DNA of 64,000 nucleotides, taken from NCBI GenBank assembly GCA_014383445.1, contig JACNHV010000389.1:1-64000 (forward strand), written 5' to 3'. Shown here piece after piece: positions 12,016 through 21,332 of this stretch. The notes beneath the pieces were generated by a model that was not told where the DNA came from, searched no databases, and saw only the letters and a list, made by a program, of their open reading frames with translations. Numbering within the stretch: position 1 is the stretch's first letter; each line of letters starts with the position of its first letter. The position numbers and the translations under genes are program-made. The stretch is from Candidatus Desulfobacula maris. Lineage in GTDB: Bacteria; Desulfobacterota; Desulfobacteria; Desulfobacterales; Desulfobacteraceae.

Positions 12016-13327
12016 AAAAGTATTTTCATCCCTTTTTTTTGTTTTACTGGTTATCGTCTTTACTGGCACGGCCTTTGCCAAAGAAAAAGCACCTGGACCG
12101 GGCCAGCAGATAAAACCGTTAAATGAACAGCTGATTACGCTGAATTACCGGGATATGGATATAAGACATGCGTTTTCCGCCCTTGCCATGGAATTTAAAC
12201 TCAATATTGTCATGAGCCGCGATATCCAGGGCACCATTACCCTGCATCTGTTCGGGCTTACCCTTGAAGATGCCATGTCCACAATTGCCATGGCCGGAGG
12301 GTTTGACTATAAAAAAACTGAAGACCTGTATTATATTTACAAGGCAACGGAAAAAGAAAAAACCCCTGTGCCCGTACCCGTTGAAACATTTATGAAGGTA
12401 TTTCATGCCAGCTTTGTTGATGTTACCACTGCAAAAACAACCCTGGATGCCGTTCCAGGCTTAAATCCAGTAGAGGTCCATGCGTCCACCAAAACCATTG
12501 TTGTCAATGATACCCTGGATAATATACAAAAAGTTGAAAAGGTCCTGTCCTTTCTGGATGCTGTTCCCAAACAGGTCTTGATTGAAGCAAAAATTCTCAA
12601 GGTGACCCTGAATGATGATATGAAATTTGGCGTGGACTGGAAAGCCATCATGACGGACGGCATTATCCAGACCAGCGGACTGAGCACTGCTGTGCTGCCC
12701 GGCACAACCTCAGGTACTGAGTTTATCACCGGCCCAAGTACATCTCCGGCATCAGGGACGGGCGGCTTTGCCAATTTTGTTGCCGGTATGGGAAGCACAA
12801 GCCAGATTGCCATGGCCATTGATTTATTAAAAACCAAAGTAAAGGTGGATATCGTGGCCACCCCTAAAATCCTTGCCATTCACGGGGAAAAGGCAAAGGT
12901 CCAGGTGGGAGGTAAGTTTGGGTATAATGTCACAACGACCATTGATGGGATCACCTCTGGAAGCGTTGAATTTATCGATACCGGAACCATCCTTGAAATT
13001 ACGCCCTATATTGATGAACAAAACAATATATTACTCAATGTAAAGCCTGAAATAAACTCTGCTGGTCTTGTTTCCGGAACTCCTGTGGTCGTATCCACGG
13101 CTGTTGCCACATCGCTTTTGACAAAGGATGGAGAAACAGTTTTTCTTGCAGGATTGATAGAAACTACGGATACAAAGACAAAACATGGCATCCCCATCCT
13201 GGGTGATCTTCCAATCCTGAGTTACTTGTTCAGCAGGACAGAGGATACTAAAGAAAAAAAAGAACTGGTGATTCTGATCACAGCAAAAATCATCCAAAAC
13301 AATCTGCTGCCTTCTCAAAAACCATAG
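12008..13327 (+). CDS. Secretin (GspD/PilQ/MshL-type)
   Basis: Signal peptide, short N-domain, C-terminal secretin ATPKILAIHGEKAKVQVGGKFGY...GTILEITPYID...GIPILGDLPILSYLFSR. Confidence 0.93.
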   Translation: MNKKVFSSLFFVLLVIVFTGTAFAKEKAPGPGQQIKPLNEQLITLNYRDMDIRHAFSALAMEFKLNIVMSRDIQGTITLHLFGLTLEDAMSTIAMAGGFDYKKTEDLYYIYKATEKEKTPVPVPVETFMKVFHASFVDVTTAKTTLDAVPGLNPVEVHASTKTIVVNDTLDNIQKVEKVLSFLDAVPKQVLIEAKILKVTLNDDMKFGVDWKAIMTDGIIQTSGLSTAVLPGTTSGTEFITGPSTSPASGTGGFANFVAGMGSTSQIAMAIDLLKTKVKVDIVATPKILAIHGEKAKVQVGGKFGYNVTTTIDGITSGSVEFIDTGTILEITPYIDEQNNILLNVKPEINSAGLVSGTPVVVSTAVATSLLTKDGETVFLAGLIETTDTKTKHGIPILGDLPILSYLFSRTEDTKEKKELVILITAKIIQNNLLPSQKP

Positions 13328-13339
13328 TCTTTTTGGGTT

Positions 13340-15916
13340 GTGATGCTTAAGAACCAGAAAGGCTTTCTCCTCATCAGTATCATTTTTATCATGCTGCTGA
13401 TGGCCGTCAGCATATTTTCCATCAATTATTATTCCGTCACCCAGATTCGGATGGCTTCCAACCAGATCGATTCGGTCCAGACGGGCTATGATTTTAATGC
13501 CATTGTCGAAACATCCCTCTGGGAATTGACAGACAATCTTTTCTGGCGCACGGTTGAAGCCGGGGTAGACACGGCTTTTAACGGCACCACCTACACCCGC
13601 ATTGTCCGCAATGCAAACCTGTCTCCCTTCAATTATCCTTCCGATTATGACGATGCCGTCACCATTCAGGTGACTCCCAAAGGCTCGGACCAATCCTTTC
13701 AAAAATCTTTCAGATATTATGCCAGAGTATTTGTAGGCGCTGACACTGACCTGGACGAACCCATGGGTATGTTCATGGATTCTTCAGGTAATATTTATAT
13801 CGCAGGTACCAAGGGCCACATAATCTGGAAAATAGATACATTCTGGGACATAACACAGTTTGCCGGTACAGGCAGTTCCGGGTTTTCAGGAGACGGGGGG
13901 CCGGCAGCCAGTGCCGAGTTAAGTGAACCCAATGGTGTTTTTGGAGATTCTTCAGGTAATATTTATATCGCAGATACGAATAATCACAGAATCCGGAAGG
14001 TGGATACCTTTGGGAACATATCAACCTTTGCCGGCACAGGTAATAGTAATTATTCTGGAGACGGGGCAGAAGCAATTCTTGCCGAGCTCAATCAACCCAG
14101 GGGTATTTATGTGGATTCTTCAGATAATATTTATATCGCAGATACAAAAAATCACATAATCCGTAAGGTGGATGGTACAACCAATATCATTACAAAGTTT
14201 GCCGGCACAGCAGGGTCTTCCGGGTCTTCCGGTGACGGGGGGCCGGCAGTCAATGCCCGGCTCAATGAACCCAGGGGTATTTATAAGGATTCTTCAGATA
14301 ATATTTATATCGCAGATACAAAAAATCACATAATCCGTAAGGTGGATGGTACAACCAATATCATTACAAAGTTTGCCGGCACAGCAGGGTCTTCCGGGTC
14401 TTCCGGTGACGGGGGGCCGGCAGTCAATGCCCGGCTCAATGAACCCAGGGGTATTTATAAGGATTCTTCAGATAATATTTATATCGCAGATACAAAAAAT
14501 CACATAATCCGTAAGGTGGATGGTACAACCAATATCATTACAAAGTTTGCCGGCACAGCAGGGTCTTCCGGGTCTTCCGGTGACGGGGGGCCTGCAGTCA
14601 ATTCCCAGCTCAATGAACCCAGGGGTATTTATGTGGATTCTTCAGATGATCTTTATATCGCAGATGCAAAGAATCACATAATCCGTAAGGTGGATGGTAC
14701 AACCAGTATCATTACAAAGTTTGCCGGCACAGCAGGGGCTGCAGGTTATTCCGGTGACGGAGGGCTGGCAGTCAATGCCCAGCTCAATGAACCTTGTGGT
14801 ATTACGGCTTCTTCAGGTAATCTTTATATCGCAGATACAAAGAATCACAGAATCCGGAGGGTGGATACAACAGGGAACATAATAACGGTTGTCAGCACAG
14901 GCAGTTCCGGGTTTTCAGGAGACGGGGGGCCGGCTCTCCTTGCCCGTCTCAATGTACCCAAGGGCATTTTTATGGATTCTTGGGGTAATCTTTATATTGC
15001 AGACAGGGGTAATCATAAAATCCGGAGGGTGGATACATCCGGGAACATAACAACTGTTGCCGGCACGGGCAGTTCCGGGGATTCAGGAGACGGGGGGCTG
15101 GCAACTCTTGCCCAGCTTGACGAACCCCGCCGTATTTTTGTGGATTCCTCAGATAATCTTTATATCGCAGATACGAGGAATCACAGAATCCGGAAGGTGG
15201 ATGCCTCGGGGATCATAACAACGGTTGCCGGCACAGGCAGTTCAGGGTTTTCAGGAGACGGGGGGCTGGCAACTCTTGCCCAGCTTGACGAACCCCATGG
15301 TGTTTTTGTAGATTCTTCAGGCAATATTTATATAGCAGATAGAAAGAATCACAGAATCCGGAAGGTGGATGGTGCAACGGGGATCATAACAACAGTTTCC
15401 GGCAGGCCGGGTTCGGGGTTTTCTGGGGACGGGGGGCTGGCAACCGATGCCAAGCACAATCAACCCCGTGGTATTTTTAAGGATTCTTCAGGTAATCTTT
15501 ATATCGCAGATACAGATAATCACAGAATCCGTAAGGTGGATGCTGCAACGCAGATCATAACAACGGTTGCCGGCACTGGGAATTCCTGGGGGCCTCTCGG
15601 AGATGGTGGCCTGGCAACCAGTGCCAGAATTAAAGAACCTGTAGAAATTTTTTTGGATCACAATTATAATATCTTTATAGCAGACCGGGACGACAGGAGG
15701 ATCAGGGTGGTCAATGCAATAGACGGTAAGATTTATACCCTTGCCGGCACGGGTGCTTCCGGAGACACGACAGATCAACCGGCAGTCCTTTCGAGATTTC
15801 AAGATCCGGCCGGGATCACAATGGCATCCGGCTATGGGGGAAGCAGGATCTACATCAGTGACACGGGAAATCATAAAATTAAAGTTCTTTTACTCAAGAC
15901 TGTTTACGGGCTTTAA
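13340..15916 (+). CDS. Prepilin-like N-terminus fused to NHL-repeat beta-propeller region
   Basis: NQKGFLLISIIFIMLLMAVSIFSINYYS (PilX/GspK-type N-terminus) then many copies of NIYIADTxNHxIRKVD...FAGTGxSGxSGDGG. Confidence 0.85.
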   Translation: MMLKNQKGFLLISIIFIMLLMAVSIFSINYYSVTQIRMASNQIDSVQTGYDFNAIVETSLWELTDNLFWRTVEAGVDTAFNGTTYTRIVRNANLSPFNYPSDYDDAVTIQVTPKGSDQSFQKSFRYYARVFVGADTDLDEPMGMFMDSSGNIYIAGTKGHIIWKIDTFWDITQFAGTGSSGFSGDGGPAASAELSEPNGVFGDSSGNIYIADTNNHRIRKVDTFGNISTFAGTGNSNYSGDGAEAILAELNQPRGIYVDSSDNIYIADTKNHIIRKVDGTTNIITKFAGTAGSSGSSGDGGPAVNARLNEPRGIYKDSSDNIYIADTKNHIIRKVDGTTNIITKFAGTAGSSGSSGDGGPAVNARLNEPRGIYKDSSDNIYIADTKNHIIRKVDGTTNIITKFAGTAGSSGSSGDGGPAVNSQLNEPRGIYVDSSDDLYIADAKNHIIRKVDGTTSIITKFAGTAGAAGYSGDGGLAVNAQLNEPCGITASSGNLYIADTKNHRIRRVDTTGNIITVVSTGSSGFSGDGGPALLARLNVPKGIFMDSWGNLYIADRGNHKIRRVDTSGNITTVAGTGSSGDSGDGGLATLAQLDEPRRIFVDSSDNLYIADTRNHRIRKVDASGIITTVAGTGSSGFSGDGGLATLAQLDEPHGVFVDSSGNIYIADRKNHRIRKVDGATGIITTVSGRPGSGFSGDGGLATDAKHNQPRGIFKDSSGNLYIADTDNHRIRKVDAATQIITTVAGTGNSWGPLGDGGLATSARIKEPVEIFLDHNYNIFIADRDDRRIRVVNAIDGKIYTLAGTGASGDTTDQPAVLSRFQDPAGITMASGYGGSRIYISDTGNHKIKVLLLKTVYGL
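14095..14616 (+). repeat. 174-bp tandem repeat, three near-identical copies inside the NHL gene
   Basis: The phrase gccggcacagcagggtcttccgggtcttccggtgacgggggg recurs at 14201, 14375 and 14549 (174-bp steps). Confidence 0.95.
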
Positions 15917-15930
15917 GCGGCCTGGTTCAG

Positions 15931-15970
15931 AAATTATCGGAAATGCCAATATTGGCAATGTCGATAATTT
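15931..15970. repeat. Imperfect palindrome, TGCCAATATTGGCA family (copy 1)
   Basis: AAATTATCGgaaaTGCCAATATTGGCAatgtCGATAATTT, followed by GTTTCTCC. Confidence 0.9.
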
Positions 15971-15995
15971 GTTTCTCCCTGTATAAGTAAACAAT

Positions 15996-16081
15996 AAATT
16001 ATTTTACCACAAAGCGATCAAAATTGTCAGACATATGGCTGATGAATTTGGTCGTTTTTTTTGGATGATCAGGCATTCCGT
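15996..16081 (-). repeat. Partial copy A of the apbE 3' end
   Basis: Near-identical to 19247-19330; reverse complement still reads ...KKTTKFISHMSDNFDRFVVK*. Confidence 0.92.
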
Positions 16082-16100
16082 TTGACATATAATTTTCATA

Positions 16101-16148
16101 CCAGTCGTTGCAATGGACTCGCTGAAGCTCGCCGGTTGAACTTAGGGG
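16101..16148. other. Possible attC-like recombination site (tentative)
   Basis: CCAGTCGTTGCAATGGACTCGCTGAAGCTCGCCGGTTGAACTTAGGGG; GTT(G)CAA pairs with TTGAAC leaving one extrahelical G. Confidence 0.3.
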
Positions 16149-16198
16149 AAGAAATAATCAAGTTGCTATTGCTCACATATTGGTGTACGATTGTCACT

Positions 16199-16381
16199 AT
16201 GAAACGGAATAAACTTGAGAACGAGTTAAAAAAGCTGGGTTGGTGGTTTCTGAGACATGGTGGTAACCATGATATTTGGACCGATGGAGACAGGAAGGAA
16301 CCAATCCCTAGACACAGCGAAATCAATGAAAAGCTTGCTCGTTCAATAATACGTAAGGCAAAAAGAGGAGGCCAATCATGA
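16199..16381 (+). CDS. hicA: HicA-family toxin
   Basis: ELKKLGWWFLRHGGNHDIWTDGDRKEPIPRHSEINEKLARSIIRKA. Confidence 0.9.
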   Translation: MKRNKLENELKKLGWWFLRHGGNHDIWTDGDRKEPIPRHSEINEKLARSIIRKAKRGGQS

Positions 16382-16809
16382 GATTTTCAGGTAAAATATA
16401 TAAAGACGGCAAATTCTGGCTGGCAGAAATTCCGATTCTCGATTTAATGACCCAAGGTCGAACAAAGAAAGAAGCGTACGAAATGGTTGCTGATATGCTT
16501 GAGTCTTTGGTTAATAAAGATGGATTTAAAATTGAGGTTTATAAAGGGGAAAAGGACAGTTTTGAAGTTGGTTCTTTAGGGCCAAAACATATGGTAAGTT
16601 TACTTTTGCAGCGAAAACGTGAAATGAGTGGACTTTCACTTGCTCAGGTTGCAAGTCGATTAGGTATGAAATCACGCAACACATACGCTCGCTACGAAAA
16701 AGGGAATTCTGTTCCAAGCGTTGAAAAACTTAATGAGTTACTAAATGCAGTTTGCCCACAGACTGATATAGTCATTAATGAAAGCACGATTCCCCTAACA
16801 AATGTATAA
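16378..16809 (+). CDS. hicB: HicB-family antitoxin with C-terminal HTH
   Basis: GKIYKDGKFWLAEIPILDLMTQGRTKKEAYEMVADMLESLV plus XRE HTH LAQVASRLGMKSRNTYARYEKG; overlaps hicA. Confidence 0.9.
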   Translation: MRFSGKIYKDGKFWLAEIPILDLMTQGRTKKEAYEMVADMLESLVNKDGFKIEVYKGEKDSFEVGSLGPKHMVSLLLQRKREMSGLSLAQVASRLGMKSRNTYARYEKGNSVPSVEKLNELLNAVCPQTDIVINESTIPLTNV

Positions 16810-16858
16810 ATCGGACTGCATATCGCCTCTGCAGACTGAAAGTTAAGTGATCTTGGAC

Positions 16859-16939
16859 CGAGCCCATGATTCATTCCTTTGGTATGCTGCTTCTAAGTTC
16901 GACCGTTCAGGGGGTTTTCGAAAAAAGGCTTATTAAAAT
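16859..16939. repeat. ~80-bp repeat R, copy 1
   Basis: GAGCCCATGATTCATTCCTTTGGTATGCTGCTTCTAAGTTCGACCGTTCAGGGGGTTTTCGAAAAAAGGCTTATTAAAAT; second copy at 19171. Confidence 0.93.
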
Positions 16940-16990
16940 GAAACAGGATTTTCATCGCTTAATAAATAAATCAAAGCTCTTTTCCTATCA

Positions 16991-17026
16991 TTTGCAGAAA
17001 ATGCCAATACTGGCATTTTCTGCAAA
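16991..17026. repeat. Perfect palindrome, 16-bp arms, 4-nt centre
   Basis: TTTGCAGAAAATGCCA-ATAC-TGGCATTTTCTGCAAA. Confidence 0.95.
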
Positions 17027-17086
17027 TAGCAGAAGACCTTTGACTAGGAAAGACTGACAATCCATTAACCCAAAATCGTGTCTCAG

Positions 17087-17125
17087 AACTTATCGGAAAT
17101 GCAAATTTTACAATATCGATAAGTT
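17087..17125. repeat. Imperfect palindrome, same family as copy 1 (copy 3)
   Basis: AACTTATCGgaaatgcaaattttacaatatCGATAAGTT followed by GTTTCTCC. Confidence 0.85.
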
Positions 17126-17234
17126 GTTTCTCCCATGGCCATGAGCAGTTCAATAAAAGTAGAAGAAAAAATTGACAAATTGAATAAAATTGAATATATT
17201 TTAGGCAATTAATATTCACAGTGAGGGAAATATT

Positions 17235-17471
17235 ATGAAAACATTAACAATGAGAGTTGATGATTCAATTTATCAGATAATTAAGGCTGCTGCAGATGGT
17301 CAAAAAAGAAATATTTCCAATTTTATCGAATTTGCCACGCTGCAATATCTAACCTCGGTGCAGTATGTTGATAATAGTGAGATGAATGAGATATTGAATG
17401 ATAAGGAATTGGTTGAAAATCTTCAAGAGGGTTTGAAAAACTTGAAAAATGAAGAATATTCAATTGTCTAA
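17235..17471 (+). CDS. Ribbon-helix-helix-type antitoxin
   Basis: MKTLTMRVDDSIYQIIKAAADGQKRNISNFIEFATLQYL; overlaps a RelE/ParE-type toxin ORF. Confidence 0.75.
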   Translation: MKTLTMRVDDSIYQIIKAAADGQKRNISNFIEFATLQYLTSVQYVDNSEMNEILNDKELVENLQEGLKNLKNEEYSIV

Positions 17472-17733
17472 TTTCCAGATTGCAGAAACTAAAACCTTTG
17501 AAAAAGTCAAAAAAAATATTGATTCACAGCTTTATACAAAAATCAGAAACATTGTTTATCCCCAATTGAAGCTAAATCCATATTTTGGGACAAATATTAA
17601 AAAGCTTAAAGGGGATTTTGAAGGATATTATCGATATCGAGTTGGAAGTTATCGATTGTTCTATTTGATAGATAATGAAAAAGTGATCGTTGTTATTGTA
17701 GATTTGAAGCATCGACAGAGTGCTTACGAATGA
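17449..17733 (+). CDS. RelE/ParE-superfamily toxin
   Basis: IKKLKGDFEGYYRYRVGSYRLFYLIDNEKVIVVIVDLKHRQSAY. Confidence 0.88.
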   Translation: MKNIQLSNFQIAETKTFEKVKKNIDSQLYTKIRNIVYPQLKLNPYFGTNIKKLKGDFEGYYRYRVGSYRLFYLIDNEKVIVVIVDLKHRQSAYE

Positions 17734-17772
17734 AATTGTCGGAAATGCCAATATTGGCAATATCGACACTTT
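17733..17772. repeat. Imperfect palindrome, TGCCAATATTGGCA family (copy 4)
   Basis: AAATTGTCGgaaaTGCCAATATTGGCAatatCGACACTTT followed by GCTCTCC. Confidence 0.9.
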
Positions 17773-17862
17773 GCTCTCCAGTTGGCAGCCGGTATTTTTT
17801 TCGTGCTTGACGATTGTTCTTGATGTGTGTATATTGGGAACAATAAAACAGGGAGGGTTATC

Positions 17863-18120
17863 ATGTCTAAAGCACGCTTAAATATCAGCCTTGACCAGGA
17901 TTTAGTAGATTTTGTCAAGGTATATGTTCGAGAAAATCGAACAACAGTCGCTGATGTCATTACGCAATTTGTCCTCACATTAAAACGGCATGCGCAAGGA
18001 GAGAGTATGGAGATCATACTCTCGGATCCTGATTTTCACAAAGCGATACTCAATGTAAAGTCCACGCTCAGCGATGGCACGGCCAAATGGCATACCTTTG
18101 AGGAAGTTTTTGACGACTGA
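17863..18120 (+). CDS. Small RHH-like antitoxin
   Basis: MSKARLNISLDQDLVDFVKVYVRENRTTVADVITQFVLTLKR; RBS gggagg upstream; abuts toxin gene. Confidence 0.7.
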   Translation: MSKARLNISLDQDLVDFVKVYVRENRTTVADVITQFVLTLKRHAQGESMEIILSDPDFHKAILNVKSTLSDGTAKWHTFEEVFDD

Positions 18121-18434
18121 TGAAAGCAAAATTTGAAAAAGCATTTCTGACAGGCGTTCGGAAACATGCCGGCATAAAGAAGCAGATTGAGCAGAAAGTT
18201 CGCCAGATTATGGAGCACCCAGTTGAACTTGGAGAACCTTTGAAGGGCAACTTGCGAGAGTTTTACTCCTGCCCGGTCAAGCGTAATTTCATCATAATCT
18301 ACTTGTATTGTACTGCATGCCGAAAAAAGGGAGATGCTGAATTTGTTGGCTGTTTCGATTGTTTAACAACCTCTGATGAAACTATTAAATTTGTACTATT
18401 GGGACCACATGATGAAGCATACAACATTAAATAA
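18120..18434 (+). CDS. RelE/YafQ-like toxin
   Basis: LGEPLKGNLREFYSCPVKRNFIIIYLY...DETIKFVLLGPHDEAY. Confidence 0.78.
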   Translation: MKAKFEKAFLTGVRKHAGIKKQIEQKVRQIMEHPVELGEPLKGNLREFYSCPVKRNFIIIYLYCTACRKKGDAEFVGCFDCLTTSDETIKFVLLGPHDEAYNIK

Positions 18435-18439
18435 ATAAT

Positions 18440-18561
18440 TAAAATTATTTCAACACAAAGCGATCAAAATTGTCAGACATATGGCTGATAAAATTGGTCG
18501 TTTTTTTTTGGATGATCAGGCATTCTGTATCTGCAAGGCTGTTAACAAGGGCCATGGCTTG
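18440..18561 (-). repeat. Partial copy B of the apbE 3' end
   Basis: Same sequence as 19247-19370 with scattered substitutions (CACAAAGCGATCAAAATTGTCAGACATATGGCTGATAAA...GTTAACAAGGGC). Confidence 0.93.
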
Positions 18562-18631
18562 AAAATTGTAAATCTATTTATTGAGTAAATTTTACATTGA
18601 CATTTATATATATTATAATCATAATTTCATT

Positions 18632-18925
18632 ATGAAAGAGATACGATTCACGTGGAATAAAACTAAGGCGAAAGCTAATTTATTAAAGCACAAAATCTCT
18701 TTTAATGAAGCCACTTCAGTATTTAGTGATGATAATGCCAGGTTGATTTATGATCCAGATCATTCGCTGGAAGAGGAAAGATTTTTGTTGTTGGGTCTTA
18801 GCTATAAACTTAAAATATCGATTGTGGTCCATTGTATGAAAGATGAAAGCAACGAGATAAGAATAATCTCTGCAAGAAAAGCTTCACAAAAAGAGCAGAA
18901 ACAATACGGAGGATATATATTATGA
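18632..18925 (+). CDS. brnT: BrnT-family toxin
   Basis: MKEIRFTWNKTKAKANLLKHKISFNEATSVFSDDNARLIYDPDHSLEEERFLLLGLS...IRIISARKAS. Confidence 0.92.
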   Translation: MKEIRFTWNKTKAKANLLKHKISFNEATSVFSDDNARLIYDPDHSLEEERFLLLGLSYKLKISIVVHCMKDESNEIRIISARKASQKEQKQYGGYIL

Positions 18926-19131
18926 GAAAAGAATATGATTTTAGCAATTCAATAAAGAATCCTTATGCAAAGAAAGTGAAAAAACAAATTTCAATTCGTA
19001 TTGAAACAAACACAATTACCTATTTTAAGGAACTATCAAAAGAGGTTGGAATTCCATATCAGAATCTTATCAACTCTTATCTTGCAGAATGTGCTCACCA
19101 GCATAAAAAGCCTGAATTAAAATGGGCTTAA
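18922..19131 (+). CDS. brnA: BrnA-like antitoxin
   Basis: VKKQISIRIETNTITYFKELSKEVGIPYQNLINSYLAECA; overlaps brnT. Confidence 0.82.
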   Translation: MRKEYDFSNSIKNPYAKKVKKQISIRIETNTITYFKELSKEVGIPYQNLINSYLAECAHQHKKPELKWA

Positions 19132-19170
19132 GCCATAACCAATCAGTCGAGTGGGTATCCTCCAAGAGCT

Positions 19171-19250
19171 GAGCCCATGCTCCATTTTTTCGGTATGCTG
19201 CTCCCGGGTTCAACCGTTCAGGGGGTTTTCGAAAAAAGGCATATTAAAAT
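19171..19250. repeat. ~80-bp repeat R, copy 2, abutting the apbE stop
   Basis: GAGCCCATGCTCCATTTTTTCGGTATGCTGCTCCCGGGTTCAACCGTTCAGGGGGTTTTCGAAAAAAGGCATATTAAAAT. Confidence 0.93.
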
Positions 19251-20281
19251 TATTTCACCACAAAGCGATCAAAATTGTCAGACATATGGCTGATAAATTT
19301 GTTCGTTTTTTTTTGGATGATCAGGCATTCAGTATCCTCAAGCCGGTTAACAAGGGCAAGGGCCTTTTGTACATCCATGACCATAAGGGCTGTTGCAAGG
19401 CCGTCGGCAAAGGTGCAGTCCTTTGAAATCACAGAAGCACTGACGATTTTGTTGTCAACGGGAAATCCTGTTTTAGGGTCAATGATATGGGAATAGGTTT
19501 TGCCCTTTATTTCAAAAAAAATCCTGTAATTCCCACTTGTGGCAATGGCATGATTATTCAAGCGGATAATTTTGAACAGGTTATGGTTTGAAAATTGTTT
19601 ATCAGGTTCTCTGATACCCACGGACCAGGGTTTTCCTTTTTTGTTTGTGCCTGAACCATAAAGCTCTCCTCCTATTTCCACAAGAACATCATGGATGCCG
19701 GATGAGGTAAAAAGTTTAGCTATGGCATCCACGCCATAGCCTTTTGCAATGGACCCCAGGTCAAGGGTGATGTCAGCTGTTTTTAAAAGGGTGTGCGGCC
19801 CTTTGATATCAATGTGATGAAACCCGGTTTTTGATAGGGCAAGGGCGATTTTATCGGGTTCAGGAATCTGGGTCATTCTTTTTTTTGTCCCAAATCCCCA
19901 CAGATCAACCAGGGGTTTCACCGTTCCATCCCAGGAGCCGTCTGTCATGTCATATAATTTTTTAGCCGTTAACATTATGTCATAAAAGTCAGCAGAGACT
20001 TTCACCAGGGTTCCGGTTTTCTGATCGTTAAAAAGAGAGAGCTCGCTTTTCGGGTCATACATGGACAGGCGTTTATTGATCTCCTCCAATTGTTTATCCA
20101 CTCTTGCCTGCCACAGGGGCAGGGATGGTTTTTTAGCAGTGATAAATTTTATGGTGAAATAGGTTCCCATGGTCCTGCCGGAAAGGGTGTACTCCTGGCC
20201 AAAGTTAGCTGCAAGCCCATTTGAATGGAAAATAAAAATAGACAGGCAAATGCAAAAAACAATGGTTTTTGTCTGGTTCAT
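19250..20281 (-). CDS. apbE: ApbE-family FAD:protein FMN transferase
   Basis: TMGTYFTIKF, DGSWDGTVKPLVDLWGFG, LDLGSIAKGYGVDAIA, ATSGNYR, HIIDPKTGFPV, CTFADGLATALMVM. Confidence 0.95.
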   Translation of the reverse strand: MNQTKTIVFCICLSIFIFHSNGLAANFGQEYTLSGRTMGTYFTIKFITAKKPSLPLWQARVDKQLEEINKRLSMYDPKSELSLFNDQKTGTLVKVSADFYDIMLTAKKLYDMTDGSWDGTVKPLVDLWGFGTKKRMTQIPEPDKIALALSKTGFHHIDIKGPHTLLKTADITLDLGSIAKGYGVDAIAKLFTSSGIHDVLVEIGGELYGSGTNKKGKPWSVGIREPDKQFSNHNLFKIIRLNNHAIATSGNYRIFFEIKGKTYSHIIDPKTGFPVDNKIVSASVISKDCTFADGLATALMVMDVQKALALVNRLEDTECLIIQKKTNKFISHMSDNFDRFVVK

Positions 20282-20460: not shown

Positions 20461-20509
20461 CATACCCAGATATTTTGTATAACTTATATATACAAAATAT
20501 CTGGGTATG
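20461..20509. promoter_or_regulatory. Perfect 21-bp inverted repeat overlapping a TTGACA-type promoter (putative TA operator)
   Basis: CATACCCAGATATTTTGTATA-acttata-TATACAAAATATCTGGGTATG. Confidence 0.75.
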
Positions 20510-20596: not shown

Positions 20597-20845
20597 ATGG
20601 CGACTCAAATGATAATTCGGCTCGAACCGAACCTGAAAAATAAAGTCAGTCAGTTGGCTAAAGCTGAGGGGAAAAATTTAAGTGAACTCGTGCGTGAACT
20701 TTTAGAGAAATATACAAAAGAAAGAGACATGAGTGCCTATATTGATAACCTGTGGGATAAAATCGGTCAAAATTTAGCTAAAAACAATATTTCTGAATCT
20801 GACATTGAAAAAGCAATAAAACAGGTGCGGTCAAAAAGTGCTTAA
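20597..20845 (+). CDS. RHH-type antitoxin paired with a PIN toxin
   Basis: MATQMIIRLEPNLKNKVSQLAKAEGKNLSELVRELLEKYTKE; overlaps toxin start. Confidence 0.82.
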   Translation: MATQMIIRLEPNLKNKVSQLAKAEGKNLSELVRELLEKYTKERDMSAYIDNLWDKIGQNLAKNNISESDIEKAIKQVRSKSA

Positions 20846-21257
20846 AGTGGTCGTTGATACAAATGTTTTTATTTCTTCCTTTTTTGGGGGTATTCCAAGA
20901 CAGATAATTAACTGCTGGAAAAAAGGAAAGATTACCCTATGCTTTTCCCAAAAAATAATTGAAGAATATATTGAGGTACTTAACAGGCTTGGCCTTAAAG
21001 ATAAGAATGAAATACAAAACTTAACAAAATTATTCGCAGAGGGTTACAATTCAATTTTCACTGCAAAAACCCCTGATCTTGAAGTTGTTGAAGATGATCC
21101 AGATGATAATAAATTCATTGAGTGTGCTGTGGCTCTTGACTGTAAGATCATCATTTCTGGAGACAAACACCTTAAGAACATAAAAAAATATATTGATATC
21201 GATATCATGTCTCCAAAAGAGTTCATTAAAATCTGGATTCAAAAAAAGAAGGATTGA
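20838..21257 (+). CDS. PIN-domain toxin
   Basis: LKVVVDTNVFISSFFGG...VEDDPDDNKFIECAVALDCKIIISGDKHL. Confidence 0.92.
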   Translation: MLKVVVDTNVFISSFFGGIPRQIINCWKKGKITLCFSQKIIEEYIEVLNRLGLKDKNEIQNLTKLFAEGYNSIFTAKTPDLEVVEDDPDDNKFIECAVALDCKIIISGDKHLKNIKKYIDIDIMSPKEFIKIWIQKKKD

Positions 21258-21276: not shown

Positions 21277-21315
21277 CATTTAGAAAATTTGGCAACGTTG
21301 CCATTTTTTCTAAAT
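21277..21315. repeat. Palindrome after the PIN TA module
   Basis: CATTTAGAAAATTTGGCAACGTTGCCATTTTTTCTAAATG. Confidence 0.8.
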
Positions 21316-21332
21316 GGCAATTTTATCATACC

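Follow-up and report, generated by a model that had tools for sequence, protein, structure and literature searches.

The window of the present study, that is, the whole 64-kb stretch of DNA analysed, belongs to genome G000 (Candidatus Desulfobacula maris, contig C216; the genus was placed as Desulfobacula via named records) and carries an array of toxin-antitoxin (TA) pairs between an NHL-repeat gene and the 3' end of apbE. Four non-homologous pairs, namely HicAB, a ribbon-helix-helix (RHH)/ParE pair, an RHH/ParE-like pair and BrnTA, are located between these two genes, and a fifth pair, RHH/PIN, stands behind the 5' end of apbE. From the NHL-repeat gene onward, the order is P1a, copy A, HicAB, R1, P2, P1b, pair 2 (RHH/ParE), P1c, pair 3 (RHH/ParE-like), copy B, BrnTA, R2, apbE on the minus strand and the fifth pair, where A and B are displaced apbE 3' ends, P1 and P2 are palindromes and R1 and R2 are repeats. 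An earlier, sequence-only reading of this DNA had placed the copies and the pairs it named, but pairs 2 and 3, the fifth pair and the palindromes were missing from its order. The features are as follows.

15930-15971, no strand: palindrome P1a, 40-nt, joined to the outer side of copy A (DNA fold z -4.9); it recurs as P1b and P1c
15996-16081, minus strand (coding sense as apbE): displaced apbE 3' end, copy A; 82/87 identical to apbE (94% over 87 bp)
16199-16381, plus strand: hicA toxin (PF07927, E 1.2e-9)
16378-16809, plus strand: hicB-type antitoxin (HTH_3, Pfam)
16860-16939, no strand: repeat R1, one of 2 copies only in 86 family genomes
16971-17043, no strand: palindrome P2 region, of a hairpin family dispersed in the genus
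17083-17135, no strand: palindrome-derived element P1b (sequence repeat)
17235-17471, plus strand: antitoxin-like RHH of pair 2, without Pfam match and assigned by position and partner; an 83% aa homolog with the same partner is present in G004
17449-17733, plus strand: ParE-family toxin of pair 2 (PF05016, E 2.4e-9)
17732-17773, no strand: palindrome P1c (sequence repeat)
17863-18120, plus strand: antitoxin-like RHH of pair 3 (DUF6364-like, below the Pfam cut-off); a two-gene homolog is present in G008, at 78-79% DNA identity
18120-18434, plus strand: ParE-like toxin of pair 3 (PF15781, below cut-off)
18440-18561, minus strand: displaced apbE 3' end, copy B (genome-wide DNA search; junction comparison with G019)
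18632-18925, plus strand: brnT toxin (PF04365, E 5e-24)
18922-19131, plus strand: brnA antitoxin (Pfam); in G005 this pair forms an integron cassette
19171-19250, no strand: repeat R2, abutting the apbE stop; R1 and R2 are 86% alike
19250-20281, minus strand: intact apbE, 343 aa (PF02424, E 4e-87), with orthologs in 52/58 relatives
20597-20845, plus strand: RHH antitoxin of the fifth pair (PF01402), located 5' of apbE
20838-21257, plus strand: PIN-domain toxin of the fifth pair (PF13470, E 5e-20), present in G019 and absent from G004 and G023

First, the 3' end of apbE is present three times in one orientation, as the sequence-only reading had stated. When copy B was used as the query in a DNA search of the whole G000 genome, exactly three sites were obtained, all on one strand: copy B itself (18440-18561), apbE (19245-19363; 92%, E 4e-43) and copy A (15996-16081; 93%, E 3.5e-30); the longest alignment of copy B with apbE is 122/140. 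Copy A had been described as still coding, and its minus strand indeed reads TKFISHMSDNFDRFVVK*. The two extra ends, in the same orientation, set non-homologous TA pairs apart. Their divergence from apbE (6-10%) is at the level of between-species orthologs and they are therefore not recent local duplicates, in a comparison that has little power at 80-120 bp per copy. A unit of R plus the apbE 3' end, which had also been proposed, did not hold. R1 runs into palindromes P2 and P1, where no apbE 3' copy is found, and only R2 touches the apbE end; therefore, no such unit is repeated. Both copies of R found in the family lie in the window, and R as an attC site was rejected, being without a supporting fold.

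Palindromes P1 and P2 share a common core, ATGCCAATATTGGCAT, with variable self-complementary arms, and within the window this core is confined to the TA array. Palindromes of this kind are also observed on contigs C35, C281 and C236 of G000 and in several genus genomes, and relatives elsewhere in the genus lie within open reading frames (ORFs), namely that of a 533-aa helix-turn-helix (HTH)/methylase-like protein (L107) and an HTH-like ORF (L111).

Second, the content of this site varies among relatives, nearly all of which are draft metagenome-assembled genomes (MAGs). In most species of the genus, apbE and a radical SAM gene (radSAM) converge with a few bp between them, an arrangement that is the ancestral state genus-wide. 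In G000, G004 and G012, radSAM and apbE are parted by a type II secretion-like operon whose last gene is the NHL-repeat gene, and the TA arrays lie between the NHL-repeat gene and apbE. Both flanking genes are on one contig in G004 (radSAM 67059-67982, apbE 85624-86643), the end of the radSAM contig overlaps the start of the window contig in G000, and the start of the same operon adjoins radSAM in G021. The locus in G004 (L036) comprises the NHL-repeat gene, Phd/YefM-YoeB, a displaced apbE 3' end (12627-12710), a P1-bearing spacer, pair 2 of the window, P1 and apbE. Two stretches were found in G012: L104 contains the NHL-repeat gene, P2, P1, a 44-bp apbE remnant, fragments of more TA pairs, P2-P1 and pair 2 in truncated form, and L105 contains VapBC, HicAB with hicA cut, P2-P1, the antitoxin of pair 3, one more TA pair and an apbE from which the end and the middle are missing, a gene that was broken and not restored. 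The TA-packed L105 (G012:C331, 1-3367) has a 49-bp exact terminal overlap, so that it is either circular or an artefact of the assembly graph. In G019 (L035), BrnA is followed by a shrunken pair 3 and then apbE, with the order of BrnTA and pair 3 swapped compared with the window. In G005 (L045), no TA pair is present, and a 1.8-kb insert lies between the two copies of a 139-bp direct repeat (85.6%) of the radSAM 3'-apbE 3' junction, the displaced radSAM end of which matches its own gene best (91.6%, versus at most 84% in other species); this insert (L045 13843-15440) encodes a PEP-CTERM protein and contains a 100-aa ORF together with a small Cys-rich one.

The displaced 3' gene ends at this one site were therefore seen to enclose different payloads in the window, G004, G012, G019 and G005, consistent with the payload variation expected earlier for the apbE 3' end, and from the four relatives it follows that insertions leaving a duplicated gene junction at the radSAM/apbE locus have occurred more than once and with different cargo. 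Simple segmental duplication of a single TA locus, which the sequence-only reading had named as the outcome that would speak against it, was rejected, as no homology links the pairs and they are ordered differently from species to species. In G023 (L034, G023:C390, 7430-7600), radSAM and apbE are again adjacent, and the join alters the radSAM C-terminus; the whole secretion operon and the TA array were apparently deleted. G023 was rejected as a true empty site, as its radSAM flank is like that of island-bearing species and looks like secondary loss.

Third, the displaced ends are not of one length. They reach about 121 bp (copy B), 87 bp (copy A), 82 bp (G004) and 44 bp (G012) into apbE, and the G005 repeat reaches about 40-55 bp into apbE and covers radSAM too. 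Because copy A and the G004 copy have nearly identical end points and both lack one base in a T run, one older shared event may, judging from the alignments, account for the displaced ends A, G004 and G012; copy B and the G005 repeat arose separately. The P1-apbE 3' junction at copy A is the same as in L104 of G012, and the pair 3-apbE 3' junction at copy B is the native junction of G019, and these two junctions are backed by a second genome.

Fourth, the TA pairs move. The hicAB genes of G000 and G012 are 98.5% identical, compared with 90.3% for the secretin gene, and the brnTA genes of G000 and G019 are 98.7% identical, compared with 89.2% for apbE; on the measure of these identities, lateral exchange of the TA pairs is shown. 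HicAB was also detected in a genome of another family (85% identical), and BrnTA is carried, 88% identical, between attC sites in an array on G005:C24, where it is a cassette payload. A match of the array to phages was not found, and in plasmids only the BrnTA stretch matched (69%). Variable TA content at a conserved neighbourhood together with lateral exchange, as in a chromosomal TA insertion hotspot, is what the locus presents.

Herein, we propose that small gene cargo, for the most part TA pairs, is captured at a hotspot in the NHL-apbE stretch through homologous and microhomology recombination, and we assign this reading a probability of roughly 0.5; the gene-capture hotspot itself is real, and its cause is more likely ordinary DNA recombination. 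TA modules in circulation within the genus, one or more of them in the form of an integron cassette, would have entered the locus repeatedly by recombination anchored in resident sequence, such as the apbE 3' end or intergenic segment and the P1 palindromes, and microhomology joins would complete the entry. We infer that a TA pair on a circle or fragment that also bears a homologous junction piece would, through a single crossover, give the order junction copy, payload, junction copy; that, with several copies present, crossovers between copies and short-homology deletions could reorder, lose or truncate pairs; and that TA addiction may help to keep pairs in place. Microhomology of 6-12 bp was observed at four joins in G012 and G019; short-homology joins are AAAGCTGG at VapC-HicA in G012 and CAGTCnAGTnGG at BrnA-RHH3 in G019, and deletions in G019 lie at the short homologies AATTTG and GAAGCA. 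The variable inner ends, the radSAM-spanning repeat of G005, the destroyed apbE of G012 and this microhomology fit recombination between resident repeats better than a fixed att site. Several points weigh against the proposal: the A-HicAB, HicB-R1, BrnA-R2 and R2-apbE junctions are seen in the window assembly only, and the genomes compared at the locus are mostly draft MAGs; no direct intermediate, circle or donor, was seen, the terminal overlap of L105 being perhaps an assembly artefact; and a recombinase acting in trans, or since lost, is possible.

The sequence-only reading had instead proposed that payloads integrate site-specifically, as islands do, and that every event restores the gene. 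In this explanation, an att site at the 3' end of apbE would be used by a recombinase of the tyrosine or serine type, whose gene lies elsewhere or has been lost; a 3' copy would arrive with each element and the displaced end would stay, giving a tandem array like those of cis-mobilizable elements (CIME). The common orientation of the copies, the use of a gene 3' end, the intact apbE adjoining the array, the recurrence in G004, G012 and G005 and the imperfect inverted repeat (a self-complementary match) in the apbE end are all consistent with such accretion. That the array lacks a recombinase, as had been noted, was confirmed for contig C216, where neither the phage-type integrase PF00589 (serine recombinases were not specifically searched) nor an integron integrase was found. 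A tyrosine recombinase with matching sites had been suggested; 23 PF00589 matches, which speak for it, occur elsewhere in the G000 genome but none on the contig, and a conserved att core was not found at the boundaries, where the copies share no common inner end and the G005 repeat spans radSAM. The broken apbE of G012, the several microhomology-like joins and the TA pairs that lie at P1 palindromes or 5' of apbE without an apbE scar also argue against it, and the apbE core as a phage attP was rejected, since the apbE 3' core is absent from the viral contigs of IMG/VR. Thus, neither the constant att core nor the recombinase in cis of accretion arrays and CIME was found, and we consider site-specific accretion unlikely.

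A decayed integron, or cluster of attC sites lacking integron-integrases (CALIN), or else off-target attG insertions, would make the TA pairs former cassettes placed by the integron integrase IntI, with attC sites eroded by recombination. Besides the BrnTA cassette in G005, whose own attC is related to an attC on an intI contig of G001 (92%) and whose array contains one attC related to four repeated attC sites beside intI in G008 (80%), this explanation can draw on intI itself, which scored above the cut-off in 14/26 genus genomes and lies directly past radSAM, beside apbE, in G006, G011 and G025. At these loci (L037, L038 and L039 in G006, G025 and G011), intI (TIGR02249, 452-461 bits) stands behind radSAM, 928-1980 bp away from the 3' end of apbE, and cassette-like genes in the same orientation, one TA pair among them, come after it in G025. 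Moreover, GCCATAAC after the window BrnA resembles the G005 attC start GCAATAAC. However, attC sites of the G005 and G008 families were not found in the window, L036, L104, L105, L035 or L045, no attC-layout hairpin was detected in the array by a rough structural scan that is too insensitive to carry weight alone, and the best intI match in the G000 genome reached 84 bits against a cut-off of 265. Neither attC between cassettes nor intI was found at the apbE locus, and a target duplication of 90-140 bp is not a product of attC recombination; this origin is therefore doubtful.

Tandem duplication might also have come first, replication slippage copying the NHL-apbE intergenic region with the apbE tail and TA pairs later entering this redundant, non-essential DNA by unrelated routes. 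The displaced end in G004 is followed almost directly by a P2/P1 spacer copy (L036 12712-12760) with no payload between, and the displaced radSAM end in G005 is nearest its own gene, both of which favour this order of events; however, the remaining copy pairs bracket payload, and a search of the other relatives revealed no payload-less apbE-end duplications, which makes it improbable. Also improbable is a trans-acting site-specific recombinase that stacks and swaps TA cassettes via the apbE 3' end and P1 without attC, so that a protein gene would have at its 3' end a bank of TA pairs resembling an integron.

Compared with known systems, the apbE array resembles an accretion array in its layout, but in its working it is like a TA insertion hotspot. 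Among published systems, the ssrA islands of Dehalococcoides come nearest, where many displaced 3' ends of one gene likewise stand in a row with different cargo between them; these tandem ends lie downstream of the gene, some islands are without integration genes, and accretion has been proposed (PMC3146451). The ssrA islands have a fixed 20 bp repeat and a defined crossover in the tmRNA gene, and many carry a serine recombinase module (PMC3146451), whereas the apbE array involves a protein-coding gene and varying copy lengths, and no recombinase was found at the locus. The folA-apaH and relA-mazG intergenic spots of enterobacteria likewise take different TA systems, or repetitive extragenic palindromes (REP), that vary among strains, through a mechanism called unelucidated (PMC7167474); at apbE, by contrast, several pairs are stacked and the events are marked by gene-end scars. 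Integron cassette arrays and CALINs (PMC8618304, PMC12444791) share the small, same-orientation TA genes, and BrnTA is an attC cassette in G005, but no attC or intI was found at the apbE locus, and gene-end duplications are not an integron product.

Several further features were observed around the array. The fifth pair is flanked by a perfect inverted repeat with 21-bp arms (20461-20509) and a second palindrome (21277-21316), and its place between apbE and an S4-domain gene is occupied in G000 and G019 and not in G004 and G023. The NHL-repeat gene contains near-identical 174-bp tandem units (14053-14874; 92-95%), a likely sign of recent expansion. No tRNA was found at the array site, Rfam gave only sub-threshold matches to simple palindromes, and searches for defence-system families gave weak HTH matches only.

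The movement and settling of chromosomal TA systems have been stated to be unelucidated (PMC7167474). At the apbE locus, several TA arrivals are recorded with gene-end scars in about five related species, and at least one of these pairs also occurs in the genus as an integron cassette. Because the scars record arrivals and the same pair is also a cassette, this locus might be used to test whether TA systems exit from integrons and then spread by ordinary recombination.

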